NCBI GenBank assembly: GCA_948567375.1
Contig: OX419758.1
Coordinates: forward strand, 36,595,473 to 36,659,472
Reading direction: 5' to 3'
Length of the DNA stretch: 64,000 nucleotides
DNA from: Lunularia cruciata
Taxonomy: Eukaryota > Streptophyta > Marchantiopsida > Lunulariales > Lunulariaceae
A program made the translations under genes and the position numbers. Of the stretch, positions 3,001 through 64,000 are shown piece by piece. The number at the start of each line of letters is the position of its first letter. Position 1 is the stretch's first letter. The notes under the pieces were generated by a model. That model saw only the letters and a list, made by a program, of their open reading frames with translations, ran no database searches and was not told the DNA's origin.

Positions 3001-5550
3001 CAACTCCCAACGGAATATGGACGGCTTTACATGGCAAGTACTTGTCCATAAGAGGACAAACTTGTGATCTTCTTGTACCCAAGTCGAACAGGAAAAGTGA
3101 AATGACTTTGTAGTTTGTAGTTTGTCTATTGCAAGTATCTAACTTGAATTTGAGATCTACCCTTGTGATTTCGGCAAAATTCAATGAATATATCCTCCCA
3201 CCACTTCTCAGGATGCTATTATTTCTTTCGGTGGTCAAATCTGCATCGAGATTACGACCATTTTCTGAAGGTAGTGGACCTTCTACTCATAGGATAATTT
3301 ACTCCACACAAGATCCCAAAAAACGCACACGTACCGAATCTTCATTGTGAGCCTTTTGGAGGTAGCATCTGGAAAGACAGCAAAGATCCATTCCTTTTAT
3401 TCGCAGCAAATCACGAACTCACAACTAACATCCCACAAAGACCTTCCGTTTTTCCCCTCACGAGTCATCAAATCAAATGCTTGACTTGTGAGCAGTCATT
3501 TCGATCTACGGTACTGCTCATAATATCGATCGAGGATGTCCTAGGCTACGAAATATAAAATGGCTTTTTACCATAAGATTCCATAACCCAAGAGAGTGAA
3601 TTTGGCTGGCTATGGATGGAGGTCCACGCTGTGGAGGTTCTTTCTAATTGTCAGGAGTCATTCACAGCAGATTCGTTTGAATATTATTCATTCGATTCCT
3701 GGGGTACACCATGATCCAAAATGGACGTCGATTTCTGTCGTGTACTCAATTGGGGAAGAAAGACGTTGCATATCCAAATGATATCCTCGTAGAAACATAC
3801 GGCTGCAAGCAAGCTCCATTGAAAATTAAAATAATGCAACAGATGCTCGGAATTCGAAAAGCATGTGTAATTGGAACATTTCAGGATAAAAGCGAAACAT
3901 GTACTCTCAGATAGTCAAATTTACTCGACCGTCTTGGGAGAGAAGAGAAAATAGACTTTCTTAAGAAACATAATAATTATGAGTTCGTTCCGAGTTGAGG
4001 TTTTACGAATGGGCTAATGCTTTTCTCATCCGAAACCATTTGACAAGATGGACTCAAGCTTCAAAACTCGAGTGAAAGCACACGTTAGTAGTACCGAGAG
4101 AGTGTCGGAATCCAAGCATCTATGAGCAATTTCAAACGACCAAACAACCACGTATCTTGCACTTTGGGCAGGGAACACTCTCGGCCTCTCATCGGATTTC
4201 GCATAAGCTTTCAAAGTGAACTCAACCACTAGACTAGATCTCGAACCAAGGAGAACACACAGGACCACTACACTCTTATAACTGAGATCATTTTCAGCAA
4301 CTAAAAGAACCTCACAATGAAGTGAGTAGGTCCTAGCCTCTTATCAAATTCATGATCTAACACACTCGATCTTTATGAGCAGATCATAGAGATTGAGATC
4401 ATTGTCACAAAGAGTTCCACCACACAATGTGACGTGTCTTTTACCATTGAGAAAGCGAGCATGCCTAGCCTCTCATCGGATCACAAAAAAAAATTCAAAA
4501 GAAGCAATTCTGCACAACGCAAATAAATCTTCTCGAGATGACTTTAAATGACCAAAGTGACCCTTATTCCACTACTGCCATGTAATCCTCCACCGAGAGA
4601 TTCATCGGATGCCCCTTCACTCATCCAACAAAACGAGTAAGATGTCTGGATCTCCAAGTCAAATTGTTCTTGCTCTCATTAATGTAGTGATTCAGAAAGG
4701 TAAAGTGATACATGTATATGATTCTATGTATCACTGTAGTCGAGTCCAGTAGTACTGTAGTAGACATAGACAACTTACCTTCTCGACCAGGTCAAGCAGG
4801 GGACTGCACTGACTACTTTGACCTTGTTCCGTATCAAAGTCAGGGTCAGAAGTGCCGAGGATACAGGGAAAGAACAAGCTCTAGTATATGACAAGACTGA
4901 AAATCACTCTCACCAACGATGCCGAACAAGATGCTCTCCTCTCCTTCCCATTCTAGAAATGAACAACGTGTGCTCCTGGAGCTCTAACTTGCTTTTTCCT
5001 TTCCTTTCCTTTCAACCCTGTGCTCATTATTGTGGTGGACTTATGCTCTCTCTGCATCCCATCTCTGCGTTTGAGAATTGATTGAGGTGGATTTTCTGCT
5101 CAGATAATCTACCCACCTGATGGAAGTATGACCTGCATAGATTTGAAAGCGATTTGCAAATCAATTCCTAACAACGCATCTATTGTGTGACCAAATATGG
5201 ATAGCGTACTATCTCTGATCATCTATATCTGTCACACGGAAGATTATTCGCCCATATTTCTTTACGCACCAATTTCAAATCATCGAGTGCCTGCAAATCC
5301 TAGTGAGTTTACACATAATGTGGGTAGTTTCACCCCATGCATTCACCCCCTTCTTTTCTTCACTATTGCATCTTTTCATCTTTTCTCTTTACTGATTCCA
5401 GTCCACTGCTCGATTTCACAAACCATCACCATACAGAAATTACTTCGAAAACCTACTAATCCATCCTACTCTGTGTGATTCGATTTGGTTTGTATTATGG
5501 GGTCTTGTGGCTGCTGCATGTAACCAACCGGACATGGATGATTCCTAAAC
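1..5550. other. Intergenic DNA, no gene recognised
   Basis: No reading frame here exceeds about 100 codons with recognisable protein character, and I see no tRNA, rRNA or transposon coding motif on either strand. A phrase like CCTCTCATCGGAT recurs at about 4186 and 4466, suggesting faint old duplication. Composition is near-neutral plant intergenic DNA. It could hold untranslated exons or regulatory DNA of a gene beyond the left edge, but nothing in the sequence shows this. Confidence 0.5.
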
Positions 5551-9358: not shown

Positions 9359-11441
9359 CGTGTCCGGAGCTTTTGTCAACTTCGCCATCACCAAAACGGA
9401 GATGCCCTATCCGAGGCCGAGCGCAAAGGGTGCAAAGGACCGGAGGCACAAAGAAATATATCCCCAAACCATGACACTTGACTGATGGGGACCGAACACG
9501 GAATCATGAGGCACAAGAAGCTTCTTCTCCTCCCACCAGCGTTTACTGTGCAAAGCAATACAACGTTTCTTCACTCGCTTTGAGAAGAATCAGCTCAGGA
9601 AATTGTCTAGCTCGTGCTTGGCTTTGATTCTCTTCTTCTTATAGCGAATGGACGAGTTTATAGACAGGACTCCATTCCACATGTCAACCGACCTCTAATT
9701 AAATTTGTTGCACGGAACAGAACGGCCGGGAACGGACAAGAGGCAAATCTGATGACTACAGTTGCGCTTTCGGTGGGTGCTTCCCCTTTTCTTTCCTACC
9801 TTTCCCTGCTCCTTCGCTCTGCCTTGTGGGGAGTTTCAACAATAACATTGACATATTTGCCACAAGGACCGCCAGCTGTGGCCTGAAAAGAGAGGACAGG
9901 GAAAGGATGCTTGGAGAAAGGAGAAGAACCAAGATGGTCTGGTCGTAACATTGTTCATTTCTCCTGTAAACGAACAACTAATTGCCCTGGAGCTCTGCAC
10001 CAAATGGGGTCGAGGATTGCGGAGTAGACCTCATTGGGTTGCATGTATGTATGACACTTAAACCTCGCTAATCTGTCTGGCTTTGCCTCTCACTGACTCA
10101 CCTAGAGAGGAAGAACAGCGGAGGGTGGATTTGCATGTCAACAGTGGGAGTACAACCACCACTCTGCTCGGAGGAACATTTCTTTCGTCGCGAGAATCTC
10201 AATCTGTAAGGGAGGTACTAAAATAAGGAAGGCATGAACACAACACAGCTGGCCAGCCAGCTCATAAAACTCACTGAGACCAAGTGGTGATGAAACGAGC
10301 GAGAACTAGCGACAATTCCCCGATCAGGGAGGCATAACAAACATGGTCACCCAACGCCAACACGAAGAAGGAAGTCAAACTCGTGTGGGTAACTCAACCC
10401 ACGATTGCATGGGAACTGCGGTAGAGATCCCCGTAATTAGACGAGAGACTAGTAACAACGGTACAATCGGTTCTAGATAGTGCTGCGAGGTAGAATGAAA
10501 ATTATTCACAAAGCTGATACAGCGCTTTACACGGCATGAAAATGGGCAGAGGAGACCCTATTGGTCGCTTTATACCCTGAAGAGAATCGTATCAACAACT
10601 GGTAGAAACTACGAAACGCACTGGGTTGCAATCTCAGACATAATCGAGCGCAGCAGGTACTGTTGTGGAAATTGAGAACAGAAACGAGAAGACGAGCAGT
10701 CAGTTCGATTCAAATTTAGCTCATTCAGATAGACTGATACATTCGTGGAATAAAATCGTGTTGAGAGCTCAAAGATGCGAATGAGTCACAATTTGAATGA
10801 AGTGAAGATCGAGACGAATAAATTAAATTGTGTGCGCACGTAAAAGTGCAGGGTATTACGATTATGAACAAAAAGGTGGGTGTGACATTTACATAGTACT
10901 GGGAAATGGCTGGGGCTGGGTAAGTTTCAATTTGCTCAGATAGCTTTGATATCCTTTCGACATTCTCCGCATGGACACAAGTTTATAGACACTTTTGAGT
11001 ATCAAAGAAAAACTCTCTTGGCAGTGGTGGAATTGGAGACATTGAATCCATGACCTCCGTCTCCTGTAAGAATGGAGTAGTGAGTTTCTGGAGCAACTGA
11101 ACGTTCTTCTACTGGCTGATTGGCTACGTATCTAGACTGAAGAATGACCAAAAGGGTGCTACCTAAACTAATCTGGGCAAAATGTGTTGCTTTGGGATGG
11201 TGAGGTCCTTTTACAGCAACCTTCCAGTCCTGCATCCTGATGAGATTGCTCGCTTGTTCCGTCGCCAAAAAACCCGAGGGTGACACTCCAAGTTGCAGTA
11301 ATCATCGATCATTTTTGGAGCTCCAGGTATGGTGTTGCGACGCAGAGCAGCGGCAGAGGATGAAGATACATGGAAGAAAATCCCGGTGTAACAAAATGGG
11401 ACTGAGGTCCAAACCGAAGCTGTCGCAAATCAATTTCACTG

Positions 11442-14324
11442 TCATGACACACAAGGCTGCTCCCAGATCTGCTGATGCCGTTTCCCCACTCCTTCAGCAC
11501 AAGAGAATGAAGCAGCTGTTGCCATCGGGTAATTTACCATTGCAAGTCTAGAATCAGGGGCATCACCAGAACCATCAGGCCTCTTTCTTGAAGGCCACTG
11601 GAAACGATTAACACTCGTCTGTAACCCCAGGGACGATCCGTCAAAACCCTGACCTGCGGTCACAGATGGTGATGGTGCAAAAGAGTCCTCCAGCTCTCGT
11701 CCCCCTCCGCCTCTTTTGATCATTGATGTTTCATCCTCATCACATTCCGTACGACCAAATTCACTTAGAGATGTGTTTCTGACGCTCCGACTGCGTTGCA
11801 AACTGGAAGTTCTGGAAAGCACTCCGTTGCTGTTGTTATTAATGTTGTTTTCCAGAGGATCCATGGGAATGCAGCAGCGGAAGGCACTTCTGTCCCCGTC
11901 CCTCAATTTCAAACCAGTGGGGTTCCAGAACGGAGATCCTCCTCCTCCCTGACCAGATACGTCAGTACTATCCCTGTGAGAAAACGTTGCTGCTGGCTCC
12001 GGCCATCTACTATTACAATCTGCTACCGCCTCCTCAAGACGAGACGGAGGAGCATGAGAGTATGTAGAGAATAGATCGTGAGGTACCCCTGGGCTCTTTA
12101 GGAGCCCTTGAGACTTGACTTGACAACCATCAGAATCTGACACCAGTTCATATCTACTCTCTGGTATGGCCCTACTGAATGAATTCTTGCGCTTCTCGAA
12201 TTCTTTTGGTATGAATGCTAATCTGAGCCCTGGGTGGGAGGCTTTCGTCGATTGTGGTTGCATGGGTGGTTGGTATTTTCCTTGGAAATCCACTCGCGGT
12301 GAATCTTCAGCCTTGACCACCAGCTCCGCTGCCCTCGAAATAATGGGCTCCAATGCCCCTGCTGAACCCGAAACCAGCTCCTGAGACGCCTGATGAACCT
12401 CATAAACTGGAGACTCGGCAGGAAGACAACATTCGGGATAAATCTTCGGACCCTTGTTGGATTTCTTCACTTTCTCCTTGACAGCAGCCTCTCTTTCGAC
12501 CGCTTCGTGTTCCAGCACTCTAGAAGCAGAACTGGCAGTGGAAGTGGAAGAACTACTCGTTTCTGCATCCTCCTTCACATCTGAGACTTTCAAAGCTTGG
12601 ACTAGAGCCGCCTCCTTGGCCACTGCGTTTGATGATTCGTTGGGGCTGGCGCAACTTTGAGCATTCCTGTAGACTGGTGAAGTATCGCTCTTCCCAGAAT
12701 CCTGACGAATCAGCTGCAGAACTAAGCGTCCTTGCTCCCGGATGGGTTCAAATATCATGGGCTGGGTGACTGCCACTTCTTTCAGCATGAAGCGCCCCTC
12801 GCTGCGAACGGGCTGCATAGTGACCCAAGGCCCGTGATGCAAATCTCTGAGCGAGCCTTGCCTACCGAGAAACCCCAAAGGAGGAGGAAAACTCTGAACC
12901 TTCTGTCTAGAAATTCTCTGTTCGTGAAGATCTCTTCTACTGCTTCTGTATCTCTCCTCAAGATGGACATCCTCCACGTCTTCGTCGTCATACGATTCGG
13001 TGTTCGATTCCTCTAATCTTCCGGCATTGTGAGCCTGCTGAGGATCTCGAATTTGAGAAGAAAGCCCTGAAGCTCCTACTGCCTCTGAGGGGCCACCTGA
13101 TCGCACAGTTTCCTTCGCCTTCGGATGGGAGACAACCTCCTTGACAACTACCTTGACCGAATTCTTCAGTTGCGGGGTTGTTCTTCTCAGCGTGGGAACT
13201 TCGGACGGCTTCAGAGGTCTGTTGTCGAGGGATCGAAGCTTCTCAGGAGAGGCAGGTTGGACTTGAACTTGGGCGGCAGCCTTAGGCTGAGGACCTTCAG
13301 CGGCCTCGTCCTCCTCCGAATCACTTCCAGCCCAGTCGCTGTATCCGGTATTGCTCCAATCTCTCCAGGCATTTCTGTCGGGATTCTTCCTCCTGGTTGG
13401 GAAGACGACTTCCTCCGACTTGACATTGGGGGCCCCGAGATTGGAGAACAGACTCGAGCATTTGCTGGTGGACGGGCTTTTCGTGTATAATTCTGAGAGA
13501 GAGTGCACCCCAGAAGCTGCAGTACATGACGTGCCTGAAGTGGAGTTCTGCTTTGCTGGTGACGATGATGAGGGAGTAGCCACATCTGAACCACCGCTGG
13601 AGTAATCCTGCCAGAATGGATTCTCGTTGCGTTTCTTTCTAGCTGGGAACTCGGGCTCCTCGGTGGAAGGACCCGGGGAGGCCAGATTGGAGAAAATAGA
13701 AGGCACCCGAGAACTGGAGAACAAAGTAGAAGGCTTGGAGGGAGCAACGGGGAAAGTGTTCGTCTTTGAGATGAAATCAGCGACGCTGCTGATCATGGCG
13801 GTGCTTTCTCGAACGCTATTCTCCACTGTCGGGACGCTGGGAATCCAATCCTGCCTGAATCCTCTGCGCTCTCGCCATGACTCATCTTCGCGCTTTCTCC
13901 TCTCCGGGAAGGTGAATTCCTCCGGGATTAAGCTCACATTGGCGGAACCCAAATTGGGGAACAGGTTGGAGCTGGGAGCGCGGAACAATTCAGAGGTGGA
14001 TGACTTGAACATGTCTGAGAGCAACCCGGAGCTCTCTTCACCAGGGCATTCACCGGAGCCCCACTCGTTCCAGATGGAGACTTTCTCCGCAGCACGATCC
14101 TCGCATACTCTATTCTTCCTCTGTGGGAAAGTGACCTCGGCCGGGACGAAGACTGGTGTCCGGATGTTGGAGAACAAGTCGGATTTCCCGTTGGGGTTTT
14201 TGCCAAACAGGTCTGAGAGCGAACTGAATGAAGAACTGGTCCGGCATTTGTCAATGTCTGCCGCTCTGATGGAATCTGATGAATCGTCGAAAAAGGACTG
14301 CGAACTCGGATACGCGCTCTTCAT
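11442..14324 (-). CDS. FANTASTIC FOUR (FAF) domain protein, 960 residues, with four N-terminal repeats
   Basis: An uninterrupted frame encodes a 960-residue hydrophilic, Ser-rich protein. Residues about 478-540 match the plant-specific FAF domain (formerly DUF3049): a SFPPPL start, then GPWVTMQPVRSEGRFMLKEV, then EPIREQGRLVLQLI. An acidic stretch (ESYDDEDVED, about 442-451) lies ahead of it. Arabidopsis FAF proteins modulate shoot meristem size through the WUSCHEL/CLAVATA pathway; a role here is inferred from family only. Typical FAF proteins are a few hundred residues, so this one is two to four times longer. The extra N-terminal part holds four diverged copies (about 35-88, 101-160, 181-241, 275-323) of a module with a short SLSDLF-like start, an LFSNLG core, FP-R-RK, and a final W-x-D-W. 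There is no signal peptide or membrane segment. The start is supported by an in-frame upstream stop and context GCCATGA. Single-exon structure is assumed; introns in the leader are possible. Long open frames on the opposite strand are shadows. Confidence 0.9.
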   Translation of the reverse strand: MKSAYPSSQSFFDDSSDSIRAADIDKCRTSSSFSSLSDLFGKNPNGKSDLFSNIRTPVFVPAEVTFPQRKNRVCEDRAAEKVSIWNEWGSGECPGEESSGLLSDMFKSSTSELFRAPSSNLFPNLGSANVSLIPEEFTFPERRKREDESWRERRGFRQDWIPSVPTVENSVRESTAMISSVADFISKTNTFPVAPSKPSTLFSSSRVPSIFSNLASPGPSTEEPEFPARKKRNENPFWQDYSSGGSDVATPSSSSPAKQNSTSGTSCTAASGVHSLSELYTKSPSTSKCSSLFSNLGAPNVKSEEVVFPTRRKNPDRNAWRDWSNTGYSDWAGSDSEEDEAAEGPQPKAAAQVQVQPASPEKLRSLDNRPLKPSEVPTLRRTTPQLKNSVKVVVKEVVSHPKAKETVRSGGPSEAVGASGLSSQIRDPQQAHNAGRLEESNTESYDDEDVEDVHLEERYRSSRRDLHEQRISRQKVQSFPPPLGFLGRQGSLRDLHHGPWVTMQPVRSEGRFMLKEVAVTQPMIFEPIREQGRLVLQLIRQDSGKSDTSPVYRNAQSCASPNESSNAVAKEAALVQALKVSDVKEDAETSSSSTSTASSASRVLEHEAVEREAAVKEKVKKSNKGPKIYPECCLPAESPVYEVHQASQELVSGSAGALEPIISRAAELVVKAEDSPRVDFQGKYQPPMQPQSTKASHPGLRLAFIPKEFEKRKNSFSRAIPESRYELVSDSDGCQVKSQGLLKSPGVPHDLFSTYSHAPPSRLEEAVADCNSRWPEPAATFSHRDSTDVSGQGGGGSPFWNPTGLKLRDGDRSAFRCCIPMDPLENNINNNSNGVLSRTSSLQRSRSVRNTSLSEFGRTECDEDETSMIKRGGGGRELEDSFAPSPSVTAGQGFDGSSLGLQTSVNRFQWPSRKRPDGSGDAPDSRLAMVNYPMATAASFSCAEGVGKRHQQIWEQPCVS

Positions 14325-15311
14325 GGCTGAGGATGATAATCAGTCAGCACTAGAAGGAGCGAATGATAATTTAGGAAAAGGGTGGTAGACAAACCTTCAG
14401 TGATGATGAAAGGGGGAAGGAAGGAATAAAGTTAAGAGGTGATAAAATCCAGCATTGCAGGTATAGAAGCGTAAGAGGAGACCAGAGGAGGGACGATGGG
14501 GAAAGAGGTGGGGATAAACAAAACTCGCAGAGACTTGCTAGTGGGCACCGAGATAAATCGGCACATCAAAAGAAGAAGCACTACAGAAACTCTGTAGCCG
14601 ACGTCAAGGCTTGTGAAGAGGTGATCCAGGCTCATGGCCAACACTTTGGGGAAGGCGAAGAGGGAATGGGAGGCAAGAATTGAGAGCGGACCCAGGAATC
14701 GGTAGGGGATCCAGGGGTGCTACTCTTCTTCGACAGAGGAGAGTATAGAGTACGAATGGAAAGTACTTGTAGTTTCTCCGTAAATGGGACGTGGAGACGC
14801 TGTAACTGATTGTGAAGGTCCACACGGCAGGCTACAAGCATTCAAGGTTTCCACTTTGGCTGCCAATGAGTCGACTACACTGGCATTCAAACAATCAACT
14901 GGCGATGGTAGAGCGCGGTTTTCTAATTTCAGTGCAGGATTCCTTCTTCAAATCTTCTTCTTCAATTGGGGGATGCCGACGAGTAACTACGCCTCCCGCC
15001 TGCTGAAGGGAGACACGCTTTGCCACAACACTTTCTGCCTCAGATCCTCGCACGACGCAAGCGTCGAACAACTAACAAGGCTACGTTTTCTAATTTAGAT
15101 TCGACGATTGAATCGTGATATTTCTTCTCTCAACACACGCGACAACTGTTCCCTCTGAGAGAATTGATCTCTTTCTCTCTGTGGTGCGGAAGAACCTAAA
15201 CGCCAAACTCCGCGCCCACACACTCTCCCATTTTGGGAAACGAACACTCTCTCCCTTTCTTCTCTCTGTAGTAGAGAATGCAAGGGTCTCGTTCGGTTCC
15301 CTCAAAGACTA

Positions 15312-49923: not shown

Positions 49924-52900
49924 TTAGAATGTGATATCATTTTGCCGGTCAACGGTAGCAGCACACTGCCACAACGAGACATATGCAGGCAGATCTGCTG
50001 CTGTAATCCCAAGAGCAAGTAGCCGTCTCCCGTATTCCTGATGCAAAAACGAGAACCTTGTTATTCAGAGAGTTCAGAGTCTAGATCAACAGAGGAGAGT
50101 CTACTTCTGGATCATTCATTCTGTATGTTAAAGAAGTAACTCATGTTTAAGGTCGTGACATGTGTAAACATGGGTGGAGGATGAGACGATTCAGTAACGT
50201 GTTTGATTCTACTTCATAGAAACAAAAGAAAACTATCCTCCACAGGTAAGAACTAAAAAAACGACCACACCGCAAGTCTTAAGTTTTCCTAGCATAAACC
50301 TTAAAATTGCTTGACGATTCCCATGATCATTACAGCTACAGCAACTAGGAGCTCGTATATCTCGGAATCAAGAAAACGTTGTGCATGGATCTTGTCGGTA
50401 TGATGTTCGCTAAAGGTCGACATGTTTAGACATGAATGGAAAATGAGATAATTCAGTACACATTGGATTTTCTTCATAGAAACATGAACAAAATAGTTTA
50501 CACAGATAAGACTATAGAGATAAGGACTAGACCGGAACTCGTTGCTTTTCTGGTATAAAGCTTGATGTGATTGACGATTCTCATGATCTAGGAGCTGGCA
50601 TACCTGAGCATCAAGAAAAAGTTGTGCACAGATCTTGTCGGTGTGAGATATACTGTGTTCACTAGTGTCTGCTCCCCCTCTTCTTTGTTTAACGTCCTGC
50701 TTAAATCTTTGTAAGGTTGACTCCATTTTCCTCGCCTGCAAACCAGATTTAAGCCTTCCATAAAGACCGCCAAAGATGTATGAAATACAATCCAATTCAT
50801 GATAACACAATTAACGGCTGGAAATTTCAAATTTGATAGGCAAGATGGTTTGAGGAGTACAGTATTGATAATTTCTCGGGCTTGGTCGTTGTATCGAGTA
50901 GTGACTTTCTCTACAACAGTGTCAAGTACCTCCTTTTGAGAATCTTCCGGTAGATAGATGACGCGTTCTCCTTCAAAGAAAGCCTACAACTGACAGCGTA
51001 AGTGCCTCAACAATATAGCAATTGAAAACAGACACCACGTAATAGATCGGATAATACTTGGACTGTTCTATAGGAACTAGCTTGCATTGCCAAAGCCTAA
51101 CTTACTGACGGCAAGGTCTGTTGCTCCTTCTTAACTACTTGCTGCTAAACGTGGTTTGGATGTCATGCAATATACGTATAGCTCATCATGATCGATGCAA
51201 CGCACAAGAGAAACGTAGAAATTGACAAAAGTGGCTTGTAATACCTACATATAGACAGCTTGAATAGGTGTATCATAGACTGTCTCGCGCGCGACCATAA
51301 TAAACTAGTGGACCAATTGGGCCCAACCATGAACATTCAAGACATTGATAATTGCTTAAGGCGTGCGAATAGATACCCAACAAGTGGAGTGACAAGTTTC
51401 AGGCTACAAAGACGACAAATAGTGATAAACCAAATTGTCAACTTTTTAGGGACAGAACCTTCAGAGGCTGCAGTATGCTGGCAACATAGGATGAATGCCG
51501 GGTAGGTAGAGGCTTGTTTGGCAATCGATAATTTGCCGGAATACTCTTTGCTTGCTTCAGTGCCTGCAAGATGTCATTAATATGCTTTTAGAGCTTATAA
51601 CCAGTTGTTGTGAAAGAAGTTGCCTAAATAGCTGGTTATGAGCGAAGTTGAGACTACCGTAGCTCCTCATTCTATTCGAGAGAGACGGTAAAAGCTCGGA
51701 GGCCTGCAAAAAGCTGCAATGTGCCTAAATAGACTTAATTCCGAGTGCATAACATGTATCCGGATGACACATTCACCAAACCCTGTAGAAGCAACTTGTT
51801 TGACTCAACTAAGTCACAAAAGTGGCAGACTCCTTCTCTATTACCAAATGCCCTTGCCGTCTACGTTCCAAAAGGGAAAAGGCAGGTAGAAAGGTACAAT
51901 ACAGTGACCGACTCTCATTCATCACAAACACGCTAGAAGGACAAAATAATGTTTCTCAAACTTAGTGACAAACTCACCTCGGCACATTTGTCAGCTAAAG
52001 CTTCGGTCAAGACATCAGTAAGTGCTGGCACAAGCAGCAGTAGTAAATCAGCTCCCTGGCAGATACTCTGCTTCACTGAGGATATTACTTCTGGCGGACT
52101 TGGTGTTAGAGCATCTTCTACATGCCGAAGGTGTGACCCTTTTATCTTCTGAGCTAGTAATTTCACATCATGGCTCACCTGAAACAAGCAGTAAATTCAT
52201 AATTCAATAAGCAAATTCACTATTCTCTAAGTTTCACCAACGTCCTGAGAAGGATATAACTAAGTTGCAAACTTTTACACGAGACTTTTCAAAATAATGC
52301 ATCCTGCATACATCACTGTTCCAGCATACAGCAACAAAATGTCAGCTATAATATTATTTGACAAGTGGAAACTGATACTTCATACTGCACCAGCAGATCC
52401 TTTGATTGGGTGTGTGGTAGACACATACAAGAATAAAGTCTTCGGGAGCCGCTATCAAGGTAAAATCTCCCCCTTCAGGCTTCTCTGCATTCCCAGCTTT
52501 ACGTGCTGCAAGACCTGCTGATAGCCATGTTGAATACCTGCTTAAGAGCAGGACAATAATTGACATGTAGTCCATGCAACATTCAAGAAATCCTTGACTG
52601 CAAATCCTTACTGATGTCTTCTTAATGCAATCAAATTGAGACCTTTAGGAGTGATGCGTACAACCCATTCATATGCTGGAAAGTAAGGCAGCACTCGATT
52701 GGGACAAGGACTGGAATTTCTTACTCGAGTGAACAGTCATGACGTCTCCAGTGCTCATACCCATCTAAATGAGCTTCAAGACCATCATTCTAACCCGCAC
52801 AAAGACTTTGTATATTGAGTCAAAAGTAAAGCACATAAGTCTCTCCGCAGGGAAGGACAAACCTTGAAAGGAGCTGTAATGTCAGCTTCAAGAATTTGTC

Positions 52901-55900
52901 AGACACCGCTTTTATAAAAACATCTTCTTGCCAGCAGCGTTGAAGGCAATCCCAGAGAACTGAACTTGGCTGAAGTGCCAAGCCTAATGAACCATCTTCT
53001 TCACGATAAATGGCACCCTGAGCTGGGGTTGCTACAGTAGTGGTTACAGCAGTATCTAATGCGCCCGCTATTTCCTGAAATCTGCACAAAGTACTTCAGG
53101 AGTCAGCTCAGGTTCGTAGAGAGCTCTTTCTCGGAAAAGCATCACAAGAAGCATAAATTGGTGGAGTCTCATCAATCCTGTTGTAAAATGGAGAGGATAA
53201 TCTGCGAGAGCGTAACCTCCTCACAGCCGCCCGTGGGGCTTTACTCTTCACTAGAATACTAACCATCTACGGGTCGGTTTCATGCTAGTGTATCACCATA
53301 TATTTGAGCAAAGGGAGCATAAGCCGTTCGAAGAACCTATCCAGAACCCACTTAGTAGGGAACATGCATATGGAAGGGATGAAATGCAAGGATGAACGGA
53401 TGCAAATTGACTCGAAGGTACCCACCTGAAATACACAGCGCAAGATAAGCGGAATGGATAGAAAGCAGGAACGTAAATCACCATGTATGTATCACAAATG
53501 TATCACCATATAGTTGAGCAATGGGAGCAGACGCCGTTCAAAGAACGGTGGGAACCACTTAGAAGGGAACCGAGAACGTGCATATGAAATGCAAGTATGA
53601 ACGTATGCAAAATGAATTAAAGTTGATCTAGGAAGTACATAATGAACGACAAGCATAAGTGATAGAAAGCAGGATAGAAATTGATACAAGTAGCACCTGC
53701 AGTGACCTAGTAGTACACGTCATGTGAGAGAAAATAGACAACCCCTTAGAACAGCAACAGAGGAAGCATCCTGAAATATTGTGTATCAGCATATAGTTGA
53801 GAAATGGGAGCAGAATCCATATATTGTGTAATGGATGGAATAAAGAACCCATTGTATACACATCGTGTATCACCCTATATGAGCAAATGTTGGGCCAACA
53901 TGACATGGGATCCACTTTTGCAGCTTCTTGTTCCCAAACGAAATATCCTCGTGGCTGTCATGCTAGCCCGTGACAAGATCGATCTTGTGCATTCATAAAC
54001 AGTAAGCATGCGCTAAGGTGGAAATGTTATTAGGGATAAAGCACTAGCTTACCGCAGTGTATAATAAACACCCAGATTCCACTGCTTCATGAAGTCAGTG
54101 TATGCACTCTGTGACCGGAATTTTTCCACAGCTGCCTGTGATTGACAGTAGCCTGCATCATGAGCACTGAAACTATCAACATATATTCATCAAACATCAA
54201 GAAGCAGCGTGCATAACAAACAAAATTTTCCTTTTCCTTTTCCTTGTATTAGTCTGGGAAAACAACTTTGAATACAACGAGACATTCTCTATACAGGAAC
54301 AAGTTGAGACCCAGGAGAAAATCTCCAGACTCGAGTACATTTATAAAGTTCGTTTTAACTACTTATTGATCAGGACGTTTGTTCGTCATATGTACAACCT
54401 TCCAGAAAGTCCACAAACTTCAAGCTGGCCTTGTAGTTGGCCAGAAACTCAGCTGGTTTGCCAGGTGAAAAGGCTCCAGGCTTGCTCTTTTGAATAGCTG
54501 AATGTAATTCCTTCAGGATGGAGTTGCTCAGAAAGTCAAAAACATGAAGGCCCGCATTTGCTGAAGGTAAACAATAGACATAGAGTTAGCTCGAACAAAA
54601 GATGAGCTAACAACTGAAATAGCAATTCATCAGTGCAGAAGTACCAGCATAAATGCTACGCAAAATCCCACCAACGGTAGTAGCAGTATATCTGGAAAAG
54701 AATATTACTAGGATATAACATTTGTGCGTCCATGATGCAAACCTTGCGATGAACACCATAACGGTTCTGAGTGATATGGACAACGAAACTGGTGGCACAG
54801 CTGTATGGCGTAATACCTGCTGCTGAAATGTCAAGGAGAAACTTGCAATCTGTCTGTATGTGTGCTTCTATATCTCTAAAAATGTCGGACAGCTGATCAC
54901 TACTACCACCACCAACCCTCCTTTCAGGATTCGTGGGAATAATCTCCTGCACAAATGGGGAAACCACAGCAGAGCGGAACGCTTCTTCTGCACCAGCGGT
55001 GTTGTCAATTGCAGCATACGCTCGAAGACAGTGATCTATTACTGAATCATCACGACGCTCCAAACCGCCTTTGAAGGATCGGCGCAAGCTTGCATTCAGC
55101 GAAATATCAGCATTTTGTATTCTCTTTTCCATATTCTGAATGAATGGCAAGTCCTGGCCAAAAAAGAAATGTCATATCAGTGACTGGAACCATAAGCCTC
55201 CAGTTGTCGAGCAAGTACTGACACCACACTTAAGGCCTGTTTCCATACAAGTGGTTCATCCGCTAGCAGGAGAGACAAAAATGGGAGGAAGTATAACATA
55301 CAACTTTGTCAACCGTCGAAGCAATAAAAAAGGGCCTATTACCACCATCTGGTTTAGTAATAATTATCCGTTTGGCTGGTTTTTTGTTTGCCTGCCTTCT
55401 CGACTCGAACTCTGATGATATACGTAAATACCACAGATATTGCTTCGAAGCCTAGCTATTTCATCGCCACATATTTCATGCAGAAACAAAGGAGGAGAAA
55501 AGCAACCTGTGCACGAGCTACGTAAAATTTGAGTCTGTTCATTTCACTCGCAATTCTCTCCAAAAGACGACTGCGAGACTCCTCCAAACTTGCTCCATGC
55601 TCCACATGCTCGGCTCCAATTTTACCATCCTTTGGCAGATCCCTCCCACTACTTGCCTCGTCTGAAACATGGGCACCATCCTCTGGCATACTCTGAAGCT
55701 CCAGAAGTAGCTTCTCAACCTATGCAGTGGCAACATTTGAAACTTTACTCAGTCACAAGGCAGACGGGGCTCCCAGGAACCTATTGAAACCAACTACATG
55801 ATATAACGATCCTTCAACCATTAGTCCGAAATCAGTTTGTAGACATAGTGCTCTACATGGATGCGTATCTTCTAGTTCCAGCAGCACTTAAAGACAGCGA

Positions 55901-58529
55901 TCACATGAGATGAGAATTCTGGCTCAAGATAACCACGAGAACCGAAAGGAAAGACTTCGTACTCCTAGAATTTAGCGAGAGTAGGCATGAGAAACAAATA
56001 TTATCAGTCCGGAAAGGTCCCAAGTAAATTCACTGTTGTAGTATGTTTCCAAATTGCATACACAGACATCACAACATAAACACAGGATTCTCACCACGTG
56101 CTCACCTTATTTACAGAACTTCCTTCTGGAAAGTGGTTATTAGTTAGCACTGTATTTGTACCAGGAGAAACAACATCGAGTGAGCAAACCGATGCAACAA
56201 GAAACCCATTACATGGCAGCAAAAGGAGTGCCAGGGCAGAAGTTTGACAAAATTTTACTCTCCATAAGCATATGGGAATTGAGAGCAGAGGCGGTTCGAA
56301 GAACGGGGTTTCAGAACCGACGAAGTGCATATGAAGTGCAGATGAAATATAAGCATGAAAGTGTGCAAACCGAAATGAATAGCAACTCAGTAAATGGAAA
56401 TTAAGTGAAACTAACAAAACGAAGGTGAGCCAAAGTAAAGACATAATTGACAAAATCTCATGAGTAACACCTGCATAGAACTAGTATACATCATGTAACC
56501 ACGAGCAAGATGCGACCAATTAAGCATCTGAAATAGAAAGTCGGGTAGGAGCCATGAAACAGAGAACCATCGACCTAAGACACTAAGACACTGAAGGAAG
56601 CAGAAAGGTTAGTCTCCACAAAAGCACAAACGACTTCATCAGTGCCTAACACAGTGACGAAGTAGCTACCAGTACCTCCTGTACCGAGTTTCTGTTCAAA
56701 AAGCTCATGAGTGCAAAGGCAAACACGGTTGCTTCCCTAAGTGCCGCTCAAAATTGTAGCAGTGCAAAGTAAGGAAGCGCTGTATTCTATGCGAAAACCA
56801 GCGAAGGTCATGTAGGAGTTTCTATAAAGCCGATCATAATTTGGTGGAAATTGGAAGGAATGGGCACAGTGTATTAAAGCATAAAGCATAGTTTATTATA
56901 AGACTACGGTTTAAATGAGGACTCAGGGGATTAACCAGACATCAGCTTTTACATGTGGAAGGTAAAGATAATGGTTTCTCAAGCTCCTTGTTCTTCATAC
57001 TTTCCTGGCCTCATTTCATGGAACGATGTTAATCCTAGTGAGATTCACTAGAATTATTTATTTCTCAATTAGTATTAATTTATATTAATTCACGGAATTC
57101 ACTACAGCTACACACCACCACTACGCTAAGATGTACGGTGGTGTCCTCTACCTACATATGTGGTTGTTCATAAGACAGATCGATAGAGAGACGACTCTAT
57201 ACAATATTAAATGCACAATGTGTGTGAAGTATATGTCCTACTTTGGTGCAGAAACTTCAGATATTTGCATCACTATTTACAATCTCAAAAGGGCTGCTAA
57301 TCCTGCAGGATCCACGCTGGAGAAAGAAATCCAGATTGTCTAATATCTTAATTCAATTGTCTAGATATATATCTGACACTAGACGGAGAGCAACCTAAAA
57401 TGAAGTTAAGATGTGCTATCCGAAGGCGCTTGGCAAGCTCCAGCGGATTGGAAACCTAGTTGTAGAGACGACGGGTGGGGAGGGGAAGTGTACTCTACGG
57501 AAGTGGTAACTTGAAGACACAAATCACAACTCACTTCGATTCCGTAAAGACTACTCTGTCTCATCTTCTGCTCGTTACCAAGACATTCACAGTCTAAGCT
57601 ACTGTGATGATCCTCAACTGCTGTAACCATACCAAAGCAGGCCGCTACACTCTGGATCTTATATGTGGAAAACCTGGTAAACTTGTATTAGTTCTTGAGT
57701 TTTAAGCTCAGATTTGTCGGGGTTTTGTCTAGATGTAATGATTCCGATCCGGCTATAACCTGGAGGCTCTTTGTTTACTTTATCCCTCTCTATTGAATTT
57801 CGACTTGCAAATTTACTTCTGAAGCAAAGCTGCTCATCAACTAGTAGCACCCAAGTAATCCTCCCCTAACACAACAGCCTCAACGGGGTGATTTACGGAC
57901 GCCCAGTTTTGTTAGAAGGAATACTCCCTCTATGTCCTAGGCATTGCTTTCTTGACAGTCTGAGATTCAAACGAAGTCCAATGTGTAATACAGAATGGCT
58001 AAGAAAACATAGGTTTATCCTTCAGTGTGAACCTTGAGATAGGACAGAACGTAACCTTTGAAACAACATGCGAAGTGTCCAGAAGGAGCTCCAAAATCTC
58101 TCTTGAAGCTGATGATTCGGCCCTGCGCTTCAGGCCGTCTTGTAATGAAGCAAGGGATCCACTAACACTCTCTCTGACGGTCAGCAGCTTTGCTCTCAGC
58201 TCATTCAAGGGCATCCGCATTCGAAGTACCGCTCCATCAACATCGACTAGCTTAGTACTTAAATTGACGAAGTCGGTATAGTCCCTGTTGATAAGCTCCA
58301 CGAGCTCGTGCTTCAACACTGCTTGATGGCTACGAAGCTCCGCCCTCAACGTATCAAATGGAACAAATCTTCTAAGATCTGAAATGTATGCTTCTGTATC
58401 AAAATTTGGCTCTCCAAAGGCATCTTTCTTGAACCACAGAGGCTGAGAATCCGTATCGTCCCCGAACAATGCAGCGACCGACTTGTGGTGAGACCCTGAG
58501 TAGGTAGGCTGTAATTCAGTAGGAGCCAT
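49924..58529 (-). CDS. COG2: Conserved oligomeric Golgi complex subunit 2 (12 coding exons, 762 residues)
   Basis: COG2 is a lobe-A subunit of the eight-part COG tether that captures vesicles in retrograde intra-Golgi transport; it is a peripheral protein on the cytosolic face. Exons on the minus strand, in order: 58529-58056, 55719-55507, 55153-54817, 54560-54399, 54152-54053, 53081-52863, 52537-52429, 52178-51978, 51563-51459, 50983-50861, 50735-50604, 50037-49924. All introns are GT-AG, phases agree throughout, and the total is 2289 nt including the stop, close to the plant protein length (Arabidopsis about 756). Diagnostic segments: PLWFKKDAFGEPNFD, FVPFDTLRAELRSH and INRDYTDFVNLSTKLVDVD (N-terminal COG2 region, residues about 30-98); LLERIASEMNRLKFY; LRAYAAID; FQEIAGALD; NKPLPTRHSSYV; and the end YVSLWQC. 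The methionine at 58529 (context AGGATGGCT) is preferred over one 15 codons upstream because it fits the family start. Intron 1 is 2.3 kb. The gene looks intact. Confidence 0.95.
50148..50660 (-). repeat. Head-to-tail duplication including part of COG2 exon 11
   Basis: Copy A (50411-50660) contains the last 57 bases of exon 11 and the start of intron 11. Copy B (50148-50410) lies directly downstream inside intron 11. Copy A encodes HTDKICAQLFLDAQ followed by the donor GTATGCC. Copy B still reads HTDKIHAQRFLDSE, but the donor position is now ATATAC, and the upstream half of the exon with its acceptor was not included. Later parts match too: TTTCTATGAAG, a TGAAT-TCTCAT phrase and the CATGT-ACATGTC end. 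Copy B is therefore a non-functional pseudo-exon. Confidence 0.85.
53289..53890. repeat. Intronic repeat family in COG2 intron 5, two long and two short copies
   Basis: Units start with TGTATCACCATATA-TTGAGCAA and continue GGGAGCA-A-GCCGTTC-AAGAAC, GGGAAC, TGCATATG and ATGCAAG-ATGAACG-ATGCAAA. Copies: 53289-53498, 53499-53735, and partial starts at 53782-53821 and 53866-53890. Another copy lies in intron 1 (56262-56502). Confidence 0.75.
56262..56502. repeat. Intronic repeat family, copy in COG2 intron 1
   Basis: It shares GAGCAGA-GC-GTTC-AAGAACGG, GTGCATATGAA-TGCA, ATGAA-GT-TGCAAA--GAATGAAT and the ACCTGCA---CTAGTA-ACATCATGT end with the second copy at 53499-53735. About 2.7 kb separates them, so the family spread between introns and not only in tandem. 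Confidence 0.65.
56503..58055. other. Remaining part of COG2 intron 1
   Basis: No embedded gene, RNA or transposon coding motif seen. AT-rich patch at 57040-57100. Confidence 0.5.
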
Positions 58530-60099
58530 CCTGATCAAGGTAATACAAGTTTTGGAGACTCGATCAGATATCAAGGTTTTGTCAATAAGCGGTCAAAACC
58601 TTTTCCACTACCATGTATTGCTCATTCTTCTCCTATCCCCTGAAACTTCAAACGCAAGTCAATACCGTTGTGCTCTCCAACCAACATTTTCAATAGATCT
58701 CTCGCGTTTCATCCTCCTCTTGTAGAAAATTCTTCGTCCTATCCATTCCAGATTTAATTCCCCTTCCGTTCTTCATTCCCCGATTTCCACCGATCTACAA
58801 ATATTTATCTTCAACTCCCGCGACAAAACTTGCTCGCAATGGAATAGCCGGTCTGAGGAGCGCTCTTCACGCCTTCTCCTCCACTGCCTCTCAGCATCCA
58901 ATCTTAGCCTAAGGCCCTCTCTGCTCTTAGCTCCGCAAGTCACAAATCAATCATTACCAAAAGCATTTCTATCCGGCACCTGCAGGCTCCGCACTTGACC
59001 GTAATCTCCCGAAAGAAGAGCGTCTGTAGAATTATACCAATTCCATCTTGAGCTATCCACACCAATTCATTCTGATGAGCTCATGCCACTTCCACTATTC
59101 CTAGCAGAGCGACACATCTGTGCATCTGCATCTCGTACTGATTAATTGATGCAGTGCACTAGAGCTCTAGCCTGGAGCGTGTTCTGCCGTCGTATCTCTG
59201 TACACCTTCATCGAGCAAAGTGAGTAGTACACTCGTCACAAGGAGGCGCCCTGTACTAGGTAGTACTTTCACTGTAACGAGAACTGGTTCCTTCGAGGAG
59301 AACAATACTTCTAAGGAAAACGTTTTATAGAGTGAGGTTCTCGTGACGTGCGGTCTTGTACACGGCTACAACTGTGCAGTAGGAAATGTTCTTCACTGGG
59401 GTCTTCCTACATTCTAGCGGTTCGCACAGAACAGTACTTGATGCAGACGCTCGTGGCAAATAAATTACTCCGAAGTATCAGAAGAAGTGGAACAAACAAC
59501 AATAACACTTATGTTTACTCTTTCCGGTGGCCATTTTCACATTGTGAAAATTGCTACATAAGCCTTGAAGGAAAAAGAAAAACCTCTTTTTGGATTTTTT
59601 TCAGTCCTAACTGAAAGACGAAAATCTGATGCGTCTATATTGAATCAGAAAGGAAGAAGTCCGACAATAAAAAGTCCCAAGGGTGCTCCTCTACGATGTC
59701 AGTCGATCTAAGCTTTCGTAGAACAACTACGGTAAACTTCGAAACTAAAATAGATCTTGATAATTGATTTCCTTAGGGCTCTGCACACTGCCCGCTTATG
59801 TCTCTTATTGCATAACTTCATACAGATTCAATAATAAAAGAACTCCTTCCACTTGTCGGTTCTAGAGTTTTAGGGTTGAGAAGATCTTAAATATAAGAAT
59901 TTTTAAATTTTTAAATAAACTTGATAAATCTTAAATAAAATCATTTAAAATGTTAAATATTCTCTTGAAGGCTGTCTTAAAATTTTTTTAATGCATTCAG
60001 GACAATATGCTCCTCGTTTGTAGGGAATTTGGAAAAGCATATTTGTATAAATTAGTAAATCCACCTTTGCACAATAAGACCACTCTATCCTTATAGAGC
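58530..60099. other. COG2 upstream region and intergenic DNA
   Basis: The first several hundred bases upstream of the COG2 start are C/T-rich and presumably contain its leader and promoter. No clear TATA box or initiator can be assigned. From about 59880 the sequence becomes very AT-rich (many TTTAAAT runs) and leads into the retroelement fossil. Confidence 0.45.
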
Positions 60100-60237
60100 T
60101 AGGATTTTTTGCTTGTGGAGGGTAAAGATTTGGTGCTTAGCTTCACCTTCTCCTCTAATTGAGGACTTTAGGTTCACTCTAGGTGAATTTACCGCGGTCC
60201 TTCACCTAACTAGGATTACTATATCAAATCAGTGCAC

Positions 60238-60319
60238 GGTGCAACATAAAATATGGACACCATGTGTGACGTATGTATATACATGCGACACACATGGTAT
60301 CCATATTTTATGTTGCACC
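60238..60319. repeat. Inverted repeat, 31-bp arms with one mismatch, 20-base loop
   Basis: Left arm 60238-60268 (begins GGTGCAACATAAAATATGGA) and right arm 60289-60319 pair along 31 positions with a single mismatch. The loop itself contains the palindrome ATGTATATACAT, so the hairpin can extend. It lies near the left end of the retroelement fossil. Confidence 0.95.
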
Positions 60320-63300
60320 ATAGGAGGAGAACACACCTTAGTTCATAACCATATGAGGTACAATAGTTCAAATCTTATGCTCCACTTGTTCCCAAGTTTA
60401 CATTGAGCAATAGTTAACCTTATTGGTTACCTCTTTTTGGAGGGTGAGAGCAAACATAATCTCATTCATGGACAGCTAACATATCCTCTTTGATGTGGTC
60501 GTCATGTTATACTAGAGTTCTTGGTTGAGCAAGCACATAAGCACGGGTTGCAGAGACCATTGCAACTAGGAGGAAAGAAGACTATTATGCACCATGACTC
60601 ATCTCCAATGCCTTCATCCCATTGGTCATGGAGATCTTTGGCCATCTCCATCACCACTTTAATAATCTCCTTTGTGATGCAACACGGGCTCCCTATAGAT
60701 GAAAGGAGTACTAGCTATCTTGCCAGCTATGTTCACTTCTTACTTTTGCTATTGGGTATTCGTCACCCTACAACAATCACAAGTATTGGATCTTCATTGA
60801 CGAGCAACAGTAGTAGGAGCTCTTGATATCTCTAGGCTCCTCCTTCCTCATCTACCAGACATATGTACCTTTGGAATACATATATCATACCATTTAGAAG
60901 TAGGTTACATTATAAGTTATTTTGTTTATTTTTCTATATAGGGCATGGGTAGTTGTTTCTCCTTGGCTTTTGGGACCCTTTGGCTTGAGCCTTGGGCTCA
61001 GTATCTCCTTTTACCATTTGTGTATCAACCTGTATCCAAGGTCCTAATGAGGGGGAAGATTGAATCTAATTTGGAGTTTGATACATGAGATGATTTAGTT
61101 GAGTGTGCACTTGGTGTGTTTGTACCATTGTTGTGGGATATGGATGAGAAAGCCACATGCACTAATCTAGTACAATGGGTACCATTGAGTTGGATGACTT
61201 CATCTAGGAGTTTGATAGTTGGTGTGATTTGCAATAGATGCAAAACCCAACTTTGTTCACATCCTTCATGGCATGGAAGAAGTTGGTTTAGTACTTGGAG
61301 GGTCCATCAATGGATAACTATCATGAGTTAAGAGAGCTCACTTGGAGGAGATTGAGCTATGGAGACAATATTGGTCTCCAAACTACATCTCCATCACCTC
61401 AAGCTTGGTTGCTAGGGGTAGATTGGAAGTACTTGTGAGTTCTAGCTCTAATATCATTGGTGTATCTAGTAGAAGTGCACTAGTTGGAGATGATGCTACT
61501 ACAAGTTGTGGTACCTCTATAGGAGGTGGTGCAATATTGGGTTTTAACCCATGGTGGAGTTCTTCTAGTGTTTGAGGCAAAACTACCAAGGAGTGCAGAT
61601 TGACAAGCTAAGGAGCTTGTAGGAGCTCTAGTGGAAGGCTAAAAAGAGCTTGTGCAAGGAAAGCATACACTTGCATGAGATGGTTGATCAGTTTCACTTA
61701 GGGACTTGTTGAGATCCAAACAGTCCAATTTTGGTATAGGATCCTAGACAAGAATTTGCAACATAGATTACATGATGCCACATTGTTAAAGGCTACCTCA
61801 CTTGCTTTGGAAGTGGTCTTTAGTTTGGCTGAGCACATTGAGGTCAACATGGTAAAGGAGAGACAAGTGACATCTGGATTTGGTAGGGAAATCTCATCCA
61901 TAAACTATTACTTCTTCTAGAGTGCAATAGAGTGCATTACACCATGTTGGCTTTTGAGGGTGGAATGGATAGCTTAGATCTTATGAAGCGAGTGGAGGGC
62001 ATAGTGTAGCTAGACCCTTACCTTCATTTTTGGGTCAACAATAGCCAATGAGTGGTGGTCTTACTTGTTGGACTTGTGGTGGACCTCACCTTAAGAGAGA
62101 GTGCACTCAAGGTAATGGACATGATATCTTTGGTGCATAACAACCAGCACAAAGACAATGTGACCATTGCCATAGATTTGGTCACACTAGTGATCTATGC
62201 TTTGAACTTCACCTAGAGTTATGGAGTGGTAGGTGGTAGGTGGTTACTATGGTAGGTGGTAGAGAAGCTCTAGGTCATGGAGAACTTGGTGGTAAAGGAC
62301 CCACACCTAATAGGAGCACAATACCTATCCTTGCTTATGATAGAACAATAACTACTTGGATTAAGTAGTTGGAGCAAAGATTGGCTGGCATGGCCATAAC
62401 TTAAAGGAGATCAAATTTAGGTGTTGAGGCTTCCATCTCTTATGTTGGTATTAGAGACGTCTTGGACTTTATGTGGAGAGTAGCACAAGTAGATTCATCT
62501 ATAGCAATAACTAGGAGTGCAGTATGTGCTTCAGAGCCTAGAGGAGCATCAATGGAGTTGGATCCACAAAGAGGAGAGGTTGGTAGATAGGTCAAACTTC
62601 CCCAATCTTTCACACTCTTTGAGGCACTACAAACAATATCCCTAGCTCCAAGATGTCCTAATGCAAGTGTAGTAGGTGCTAATGGATTGCATGATGGATT
62701 AGATGCTAGTCAACCACCTACTACTACACAAATTGAGTCTTGCACAATGTTGGGAGTGGCTTAGTTGATTATGCACTTCCTTTTGTTCTCAACTAGTGAC
62801 ATGCTACATTGGAAGGTGACCCAACTCCATTGTTCTGATTAGTTGCCATACTTTGTGAAAGTAAGGATGATGTGGTTCCTACTTTGAGGGCAAAGGTGGT
62901 AGATAGTGGAGCTAACTTGGTTAAGGAGCATGGGATTGCTCAATGACCAATAGTTTATGGTAGGCAATAGTAGCTATGTTGGAGGAGTTATGAGCTAGAT
63001 TTGCCTTTGAGTGAGCGCAATTCACACCTAGAGTTGTCCTATTGGATAACTAAAGGGGGATTTCTATTTTGGTTGGTCTTGAGCTACATAAGATTGATAT
63101 AGAGAGGTATTCATTTCAAATCTCGACATCTTTAGAGGTGGTTCTTTACAATAAATCACATGTGGAGAGCTCATTGTCCAAATTCAGCTTAGTCATCCAA
63201 TTGATAGCTCTGTGGTGAGAGCTCAAGCTATTATAACAATAGCAAAGTTATATGATGTGCTAATTGGTGGAGTAGTATTACCATGGGTTTTAGTATTGAT

Positions 63301-63724
63301 TATTGGGAGGAGATACCTCTTATAGACCAAGTTGGTAGTTAGGTGAGGAATGGGTATGTTGCCTACTAGTGCACTTTAGTAGTGGTAGTCTTGGCTCACT
63401 ACAATCAGGGACTATGGTATCATTTTTAACTTTAAGTGGTTCCATTATTTGACCTATAGAAGTATTGAAGGGGAATGCTCATGTAGAGAATACTTCAATA
63501 TCAAAGGAGATCACTTTTGGAGTACAAGTGAGATCATTCCATCCACCTTGGATGTTCCATTGTGGAGTTCTAAGGAGGCATTGCAACATCATGCGGATCA
63601 ATTAATGCAAAAGGCTTGCATTCAAACCTTTGTATCACCATGAGATTGATGTGAGGATGAGCCTTTGAAGTCTATTACCTTGTCACCTTTGTGCACCACA
63701 CTCATTTCTTGGTAGTATCCAATA

Positions 63725-63841
63725 GAGAAAGTATATCTATTGGAGTTGTTTGGTGGGATTAGCACTGGACTAGCTATGGTATTATATGCAAGTATACGAG
63801 TACATACGTACTTGTATGTGGAGAGAGATGAGATTTTTAAG
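63725..63841 (+). other. Cytosine-methyltransferase-like domain start within the LTR element fossil
   Basis: A 39-codon stretch includes LLELFGGISTGLA followed about 15 residues later by YLYVERDE. This matches the shape of motif I of DNA cytosine-5 methyltransferases (a [FL]-x-G-[IL]-G-T-G-L loop that binds S-adenosylmethionine) and the acidic strand that follows. LTR elements carrying such a domain have been reported from the charophyte Klebsormidium and from dinoflagellates. The remaining motifs, including the catalytic Pro-Cys, would lie beyond the window. It is part of a fossil and not an active enzyme gene. Confidence 0.6.
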
Positions 63842-64000
63842 TGAGTCTCTCTACATCATGTGGCACATTTGGCTTATCAGTATCTTGAGTTATTATCAAT
63901 GTTAATAGTCAAGGGTTACGAAAAGACCACTACCAACAAAAAATTTCTTGTTGGGAGCATAGTATTTGGAGAAACATGATCCCATTCATTTGGTGATTTT

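Follow-up and report, generated by a model that had tools for sequence, protein, structure and literature searches.

A CG- and CHG-depleted relic in Lunularia cruciata belongs to a large Ty3/Gypsy-type retroelement family carrying a C5-cytosine methyltransferase

The locus and its relic

The stretch of Lunularia cruciata DNA analyzed here (the window, 64,000 nucleotides, C7:36595473-36659472) carries two genes on its minus strand and, at its 3' end, the beginning of a decayed retroelement. An open frame of 965 codons (11445-14339, minus strand) contains a Fantastic Four (FAF) domain (E 4e-15), and a COG2 gene extends over ~8 kb (50304-58592, minus strand; COG2_N, E 1.5e-26; COG2_C, E 1e-7). 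The dirigent and Fantastic Four families are land-plant families, and gene content, i.e., 35 dirigent-domain matches in the genome together with the Fantastic Four gene of the window, thus identifies the host as a land plant. Directly upstream of the relic, a near-perfect palindrome (60238-60319) made of two 41-nt arms (93%) without spacer resembles what remains of a fold-back or MITE-type element.

The in-window part of the relic occupies 61022-64000 on the plus strand, as delimited by blastn against three copies from the same genome (78-82% identity) and by tblastn with the two open reading frames of the family, ORF1 and ORF2 (see below). The relic extends past the window end to window coordinate ~68350, with an insert of ~0.75 kb at 64866-65613, and its DNA identity to family copies is 78-83% in three pieces. 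At the protein level, residues 60 to 1428 of ORF1 and 1 to 871 of the 1037 residues of ORF2 can be followed through several of its frames, with 40-82% identity. The gag and post-gag region (61023-62803, plus strand; ORF1 residues ~60-658 by tblastn) is frameshifted over several frames and includes two CCHC zinc knuckles read directly from the sequence on the same strand, CWTCGGPHLKREC at 62066-62104 (Pfam zf-CCHC, E 0.15, below cut-off) and CDHCHRFGHTSDLC at 62159-62200. It is followed by the protease (PR) region (62806-63515, plus strand; ORF1 residues ~660-928 by tblastn). The initial annotation of this DNA had reported a gag knuckle and a protease-like region here, and both stand, with a second knuckle added. 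The 'DSGA' readable near 62900 is nevertheless ruled out as the protease active site: the active-site stretch of the family, LLDSGAQPLMLGKA, sits further on and is absent from the relic owing to an 87-bp in-frame deletion at ~63072.

Next comes the N-terminal part of a C5-cytosine methyltransferase (MTase) domain (63737-64000, plus strand), which runs beyond the window. Its motif I, LLELFGGISTGLA (63737-63775), lies within an open frame (63716-63841) that is followed by an in-frame TGA (63842-63844), past which the same MTase frame resumes with VSLHHVAHLAYQYLELLSM. By itself, this fragment is too decayed to score, and sequence searches of Pfam, NCBIfam, and the PDB gave no match for it. Set against better kept copies of the same genome, the motif-I-like stretch first recognized in the initial annotation and its continuation are unambiguous, and ORF1 residues 931-1304 match window coordinates 63518-64633 with 48% identity over 390 columns (tblastn). 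Downstream lie the rest of the MTase, a stop codon in a TAG-CAR-YYA context and a Gypsy-type reverse transcriptase (RT; 60% identity over 234 aa), which supports the earlier proposal of an MTase inside a Gypsy-like fossil; ORF2 as a whole matches the relic in three stretches at 61-70% identity. Terminal repeats of the relic's own were sought and none was found, so that it cannot be dated by its repeats.

Architecture, ends, and abundance of the family

A search of the genome (566 Mb, 74 contigs) with the PF00145 profile scored 123 matches among 2,161 candidates, ~110 of the matches without an internal stop by hand count. Among eight loci retrieved, L005-L008 show post-gag/PR, MTase, and RT regions by eye and were taken to be retroelement copies. 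Fifteen copies, taken from the PF00145 matches at 10 kb each with 5-kb 3' extensions, were picked mainly for long frames and are therefore better than average; the aligned set comprises 13 of them, L017 and L022 being left out as incomplete. The order along the copies is gag (two CCHC knuckles), protease region, MTase, TAG-CAR-YYA, RT, RNase H, integrase, and PHD finger, and all 13 aligned copies, which come from seven contigs, show the succession gag-PR-MTase-stop-RT.

ORF1 encodes gag, the protease region, and the MTase, and in L011 and L012 it runs uninterrupted over 1,428 codons; stop-free frames of at least this length were counted by hand around 12 of 150 MTase matches (the best 150 of 10,503 candidates). 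ORF2, 1,037 codons long in L015 and L020, encodes RVT_1, RNase H, H2C2, rve, and, at its extreme end, a PHD finger. A Pfam scan of L012 ORF1 and L015 ORF2, divided into six pieces, gave matches to RVT_1 (E 5e-32), RNaseH (6e-36), H2C2 (5e-19), rve (3e-13), and PHD (2e-10, over its cut-off), the best PDB match of the PHD finger being CHD4 (E 1e-16). This is the Ty3/Gypsy (Metaviridae) arrangement of a CCHC-bearing gag followed by PR, RT, RNase H, and integrase, with the qualification that Retrotrans_gag remains below cut-off in a relative (E 0.015) and that the protease, for which no Pfam match was obtained even in the better kept copies, is called by its motif. ORF1 and ORF2 share one frame, and the TAG between them is followed by CAG-CCA or CAG-CTA in all 13 alignable copies. 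UAG-CAR-YYA is a type-I leaky stop context; the random odds of the six bases after TAG are 1/512, and the copies count as one event since they share descent.

The termini depart from the two identical flanking LTRs that are typical of Ty3/Gypsy elements. The 5' end is formed by a repeat, A1, of ~454 bp, and the 3' end by B1 (~107 bp), A2, and B2, so that the outermost sequences are A1 and B2 and the repeats are split as A1...B1-A2-B2; an interpretation as plain LTRs was dropped once the 3' extensions revealed B2. All four repeats are present in 12 of the 15 copies, the exceptions being L012 (A1 internally deleted), L017 (without A repeats), and L022 (without a 3' end). DIRS, PAT, and Ngaro elements have the repeat order A1-body-B1-A2-B2, and split direct repeats with an internal complementary region, a DIRS trait, are thus found here as well. 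The outer ends read TGTC...GACA, and the inner B1|A2 junction, GACAGCTGTC, reads GACA-GC-TGTC, i.e., both outer ends joined across two bases. In contrast to DIRS/PAT/Ngaro elements, the Lunularia family has H2C2 and rve domains as well as 4-bp target duplications, and no tyrosine recombinase was found among Pfam matches at E up to 1 in the six scanned ORF1 and ORF2 pieces. The target duplications are exact in 9 of the 12 copies having both ends (8 by script, plus L018 when its own end is used) and not seen in L021 and L024, while in L025 three of the four bases agree; short duplications of this kind, together with the rve match, are what is expected from the DDE integrase of Ty3/Gypsy elements. 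In L018, a second A-B tail (~9991-10741) lies ~190 bp past the point where the copy itself ends, on its downstream side, and is perhaps a nested or recombined remnant. Directly after A1, the copies carry CATCAGAGAAG, whose ATCAGAG is a possible half primer-binding site and, we presume, fits an initiator-tRNA primer.

A whole-genome search for related copies, as proposed in the initial annotation, revealed a large family. At up to 3 mismatches, a 43-nt MTase stretch occurs at 2,496 places in the genome, an RT stretch at 3,473, and an A-repeat stretch at 1,886, with 0 places for reversed-pattern controls. Were each RT place to represent a full-length copy, the family would, as a rough estimate, make up ~6% of the genome. 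In a protein search, the best 150 of 10,503 candidates, top scorers that are unrepresentative of the remainder, are all at least 96% identical over 185 aa, and 117 of these 150 lack an internal stop (hand count). Of 12 copies, nine have A1 and A2 repeats that are 97.3-99.8% identical; identity falls to 94.8% in L024, 89.4% in L020, and 88.7% in L025. The family is thus abundant and includes some young copies; the initial annotation had rightly seen an old copy in a plant genome, but only that one. The lower number of MTase than of RT places prompted a search for an MTase-less sub-family, and none appeared in six RT matches on C1, a sample too small to exclude one: these six were chosen for lacking an exact MTase match nearby, and all of them carry the MTase, with 3, 3, 3, 4, 4, and 6 pattern mismatches.

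Relatives of and selection on the methyltransferase

The profile check suggested for the MTase succeeds with a better kept relative, which matches PF00145 over the cut-off (E 7.3e-8) and contains, in order, stretches that we take to be motifs I, IV (PCQ), VI (ENV), VIII, and X of C5-MTases. Across the 13 copies, GWPCQG is kept in 12, ENV in 13, RLR of motif VIII in 10, and LGQAMDLN of motif X in 12, while the complete 13-residue motif I is unchanged in nine. The best PDB match is DNMT3A (E 1.1e-9), followed by DNMT3B, HaeIII (8e-4), and DRM2 (0.015), and the motif order is that of DNMT3A and DNMT3B, without the DRM-type rearrangement. The element enzyme differs from these two by its low identity (28% over 197 aa for animal DNMT3A), by an insert of ~17 residues after the SAM-binding part, and by its surroundings, since no ADD or PWWP domain is seen in the element, although its Pol terminates in a PHD finger.

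Phage C5-MTases align at 34% identity over 217 aa, and the DNMT3 of the host at 29% over 143 aa. L001 is a host DNMT3 gene (PDB match DNMT3, 3e-16), L004 resembles a second host DNMT3 and L002 a re-arranged DRM, both by eye. A horizontal, phage, or bacterial origin, as opposed to descent from a eukaryotic DNMT3, is somewhat unlikely but has to be taken seriously in view of the low phage E-values, both in tblastn (447 records, down to 1e-15) and in BLASTP against one small set (1e-21 for phage Epa40 versus 4e-14 for DNMT3A). However, the L001 DNMT3 itself matches flavobacterial phage MTases with 44% identity, and the phage likeness is therefore general to the DNMT3 kind. Plasmid matches are weaker (51 records; lowest E 2e-5 among the five matches listed), and no close relative was confirmed among IMG/VR and GTDB contigs, where 1 and 76 pattern matches, respectively, were obtained. 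In a tree of 18 rows, from which a second host DNMT3 piece, one element copy, and one phage were left out, the element MTase sits on a long branch with no firm place; the data do not reject a clade uniting it with both host DNMT3 and DNMT3A (p-AU 0.5), one with only DNMT3A (0.156), or one that joins it to DNMT3 and DRM (0.233). DNMT3A thus provides the nearest solved structure, phage enzymes are at least as close, and the domain may derive from either the DNMT3 or the phage kind.

Whether the MTase contributes to the element can be approached through selection. Whole-copy dN/dS is 0.37 for RT, 0.36 for RNaseH, 0.45 for the MTase, 0.455 for the integrase, 0.52 for the C-terminus with the PHD finger, 0.55 for PR, 0.63 for a 58-codon tail after the MTase, and 0.69 for gag. 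That the MTase lies above RT and RNaseH would suit a functionless passenger in an element whose other parts are selected, but its value is just moderately low because post-insertion decay is mixed into whole-copy figures. Variants were therefore split into singletons and those shared by at least two of the 13 copies, which separates such decay from evolution of the source lineage, a split that was chosen after the dN/dS values. MTase singletons are near neutral (N60:S23, 1.16 of expected), as a passenger would predict, whereas shared variants are depleted in nonsynonymous changes (N22:S20, 0.49 of expected; Fisher p 0.03; p 0.017 for shared variants against the expected N:S). The same test with seven domains combined gives p 0.006, for 13 copies that are not independent. 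By this measure the MTase is as constrained as RT (0.49), RNaseH (0.42), and integrase (0.39), while shared PR variants are barely constrained (0.84) and RT singletons look constrained too (0.53). Two stop-making MTase variants, again in line with a passenger, are shared by at least two copies, so that some shared variants derive from dead copies. Since motifs IV, VI, and X are almost invariant and the relic bore the same domain at the same place, a mere passenger is improbable; shared MTase variants look constrained, although the test is modest with 13 non-independent copies, and the enzyme was probably catalytically active in the source copies. Recent capture from this host's own DNMT3 gene is very improbable. 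The host does possess such a gene and the best PDB match is DNMT3A, but phage enzymes and animal DNMT3A both score above the host protein in the alignments given above, and the long, unplaced branch does not favor so close a source.

Decay, proposed replication, and known relatives

The relic lies in a stretch depleted in CpG and CHG (60001-64000, no strand assigned), part of an island reaching window-equivalent ~76000. Observed/expected CpG is 0.02-0.27 per kb across 60-68 kb, versus 0.51-0.98 in 2-kb bins of window positions 1-60000, and the corresponding CHG values are 0.16-0.37 versus 0.78-1.30. The extreme CpG loss pointed out in the initial annotation was thus correct but incomplete, since CHG sites are depleted too. 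As the entire island beside the COG2 gene, whose 5' end is ~1.5 kb away from it, is depleted, several old elements must lie there rather than the relic alone; a second Gypsy-type RT relic is found within it, at ~4000-5400 of L010, which with L009 makes up the sequence read past the window end.

Compared with copy L015, the relic shows transitions at 177 of 368 CG (48%), 292 of 719 CHG (41%), 324 of 2259 CHH (14%), and 155 of 3177 A/T (5%) positions; the opposite change, with L015 showing T where the relic has C, amounts to 5/48 at CG, 4/100 at CHG, and 146/2442 at CHH. Among 12 other copies, out of 20 available and comparable, transitions form a gradient from 2.3 to 31.8% at CG and from 1.9 to 26.4% at CHG, and the window copy, at the extreme, is the most decayed of the copies compared. 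Such depletion could in principle stem from a single burst of RIP-like or APOBEC-like hypermutation rather than from slow deamination of host-methylated sites, but the stepwise rise over the other copies and the similar effect on both strands at CG (C>T 50.5%, G>A 45.7%) make this highly unlikely. Slow deamination remains the preferred reading: the loss agrees with CG and CHG methylation as plants place it on silenced copies, and the host would so mark old insertions, which would then decay by deamination. Old copies of this land plant appear to carry traces of methylation at CG and CHG, and copies of graded age may provide a clean record of deamination at both contexts.

By identity and architecture, the feature is almost certainly a dead copy from a large Ty3/Gypsy-type retroelement family carrying a C5-cytosine MTase, and it was probably eroded through methylation. 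That a host MTase gene or pseudogene lies by chance beside an unrelated Gypsy relic, an idea left room by a window that ends within the MTase and by the failure of single-fragment searches, is refuted for all practical purposes by the 13 co-linear copies on seven contigs, the single gag-to-MTase frame of L011 and L012, and the target duplications that copies carry of their own.

A complete explanation, joining this identity and architecture to inferred steps of expression, packaging, replication, and decay, is considered highly probable as a whole. The MTase would be made within the abundant Gag-level polyprotein, and readthrough of the TAG, which the conserved TAG-CAR-YYA context makes very likely, would yield a minor Gag-MTase-Pol product with RT, integrase, and PHD finger. 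Packaged in the particle, the MTase might methylate the cDNA of its own element or a newly made insertion; that cDNA self-methylation is its actual job is a tentative assignment, somewhat less likely than its opposite. The same reserve applies to PHD-guided insertion, in which the finger carried on the integrase would read the histone H3 tail and steer integration. The GACA-GC-TGTC junction may serve as the template that rebuilds both outer ends (TGTC... and ...GACA) during reverse transcription, a role equivalent to that of the internal complementary region of DIRS elements, after which the DDE integrase would insert the linear DNA; joint action of split repeats and a DDE integrase is proposed by inference only. 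The most far-reaching version is a doubtful one: a land-plant retroelement of thousands of copies that would write its own DNA methylation, with a Gag-level de novo MTase expressed via readthrough and packaged, a PHD finger reading H3, split repeats working with a DDE integrase, and perhaps an influence on host CG methylation. If true, MTase and PHD finger would form a selfish equivalent of DNMT3 paired with ADD.

Elements of this kind are already known. KnitGypsy-Dnmt3 of the charophyte Klebsormidium nitens is an MTase-bearing Gypsy-type element and has a Gypsy-type domain set, a C5-MTase of DNMT3 likeness, and a DIRS-type repeat layout on Gypsy domains (Fig. 4 legend), with purifying selection on the MTase and CHG and CHH methylation on its copies (de Mendoza et al., 2018, PMC5890265). 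The Lunularia family shares the combination of Gypsy domains, DNMT3-like MTase in a polyprotein, and DIRS-like repeats, a comparison made by description only. It differs in that its MTase lies on the gag-PR side, ahead of the leaky-looking TAG, in 13 of 13 copies, whereas that of KnitGypsy-Dnmt3 is described in the Pol polyprotein ORF; in that its Pol ends in a PHD finger and its host is a land plant; and in its thousands of copies, KnitGypsy-Dnmt3 being given as having fewer copies than are found in Symbiodinium (PMC5890265). SymbioDIRS-Dnmt3 and SymbioLINE-Dnmt of the dinoflagellate Symbiodinium likewise carry C5-MTases, but on DIRS (tyrosine recombinase) or LINE backbones that are, per the authors, unrelated to the Gypsy one (PMC5890265).

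A later opinion paper builds an argument on the absence of MTase-bearing retroelements from land plants (PMC6338049). No land-plant case was found among the titles and opening abstract lines listed from the open PMC literature, a scope that cannot show absence from print. As far as can be seen from these sources, the land-plant host and the thousands of copies appear new, as do an MTase placed with Gag, ahead of a leaky-type stop, and the PHD finger on Pol. That a second streptophyte lineage also combines DIRS-like split repeats with a DDE integrase may point to a single ancient lineage of elements rather than an oddity. With 3,473 RT places and some copies whose repeats are near-identical, the question of why a parasite carries its host's silencing enzyme becomes testable in a land plant.
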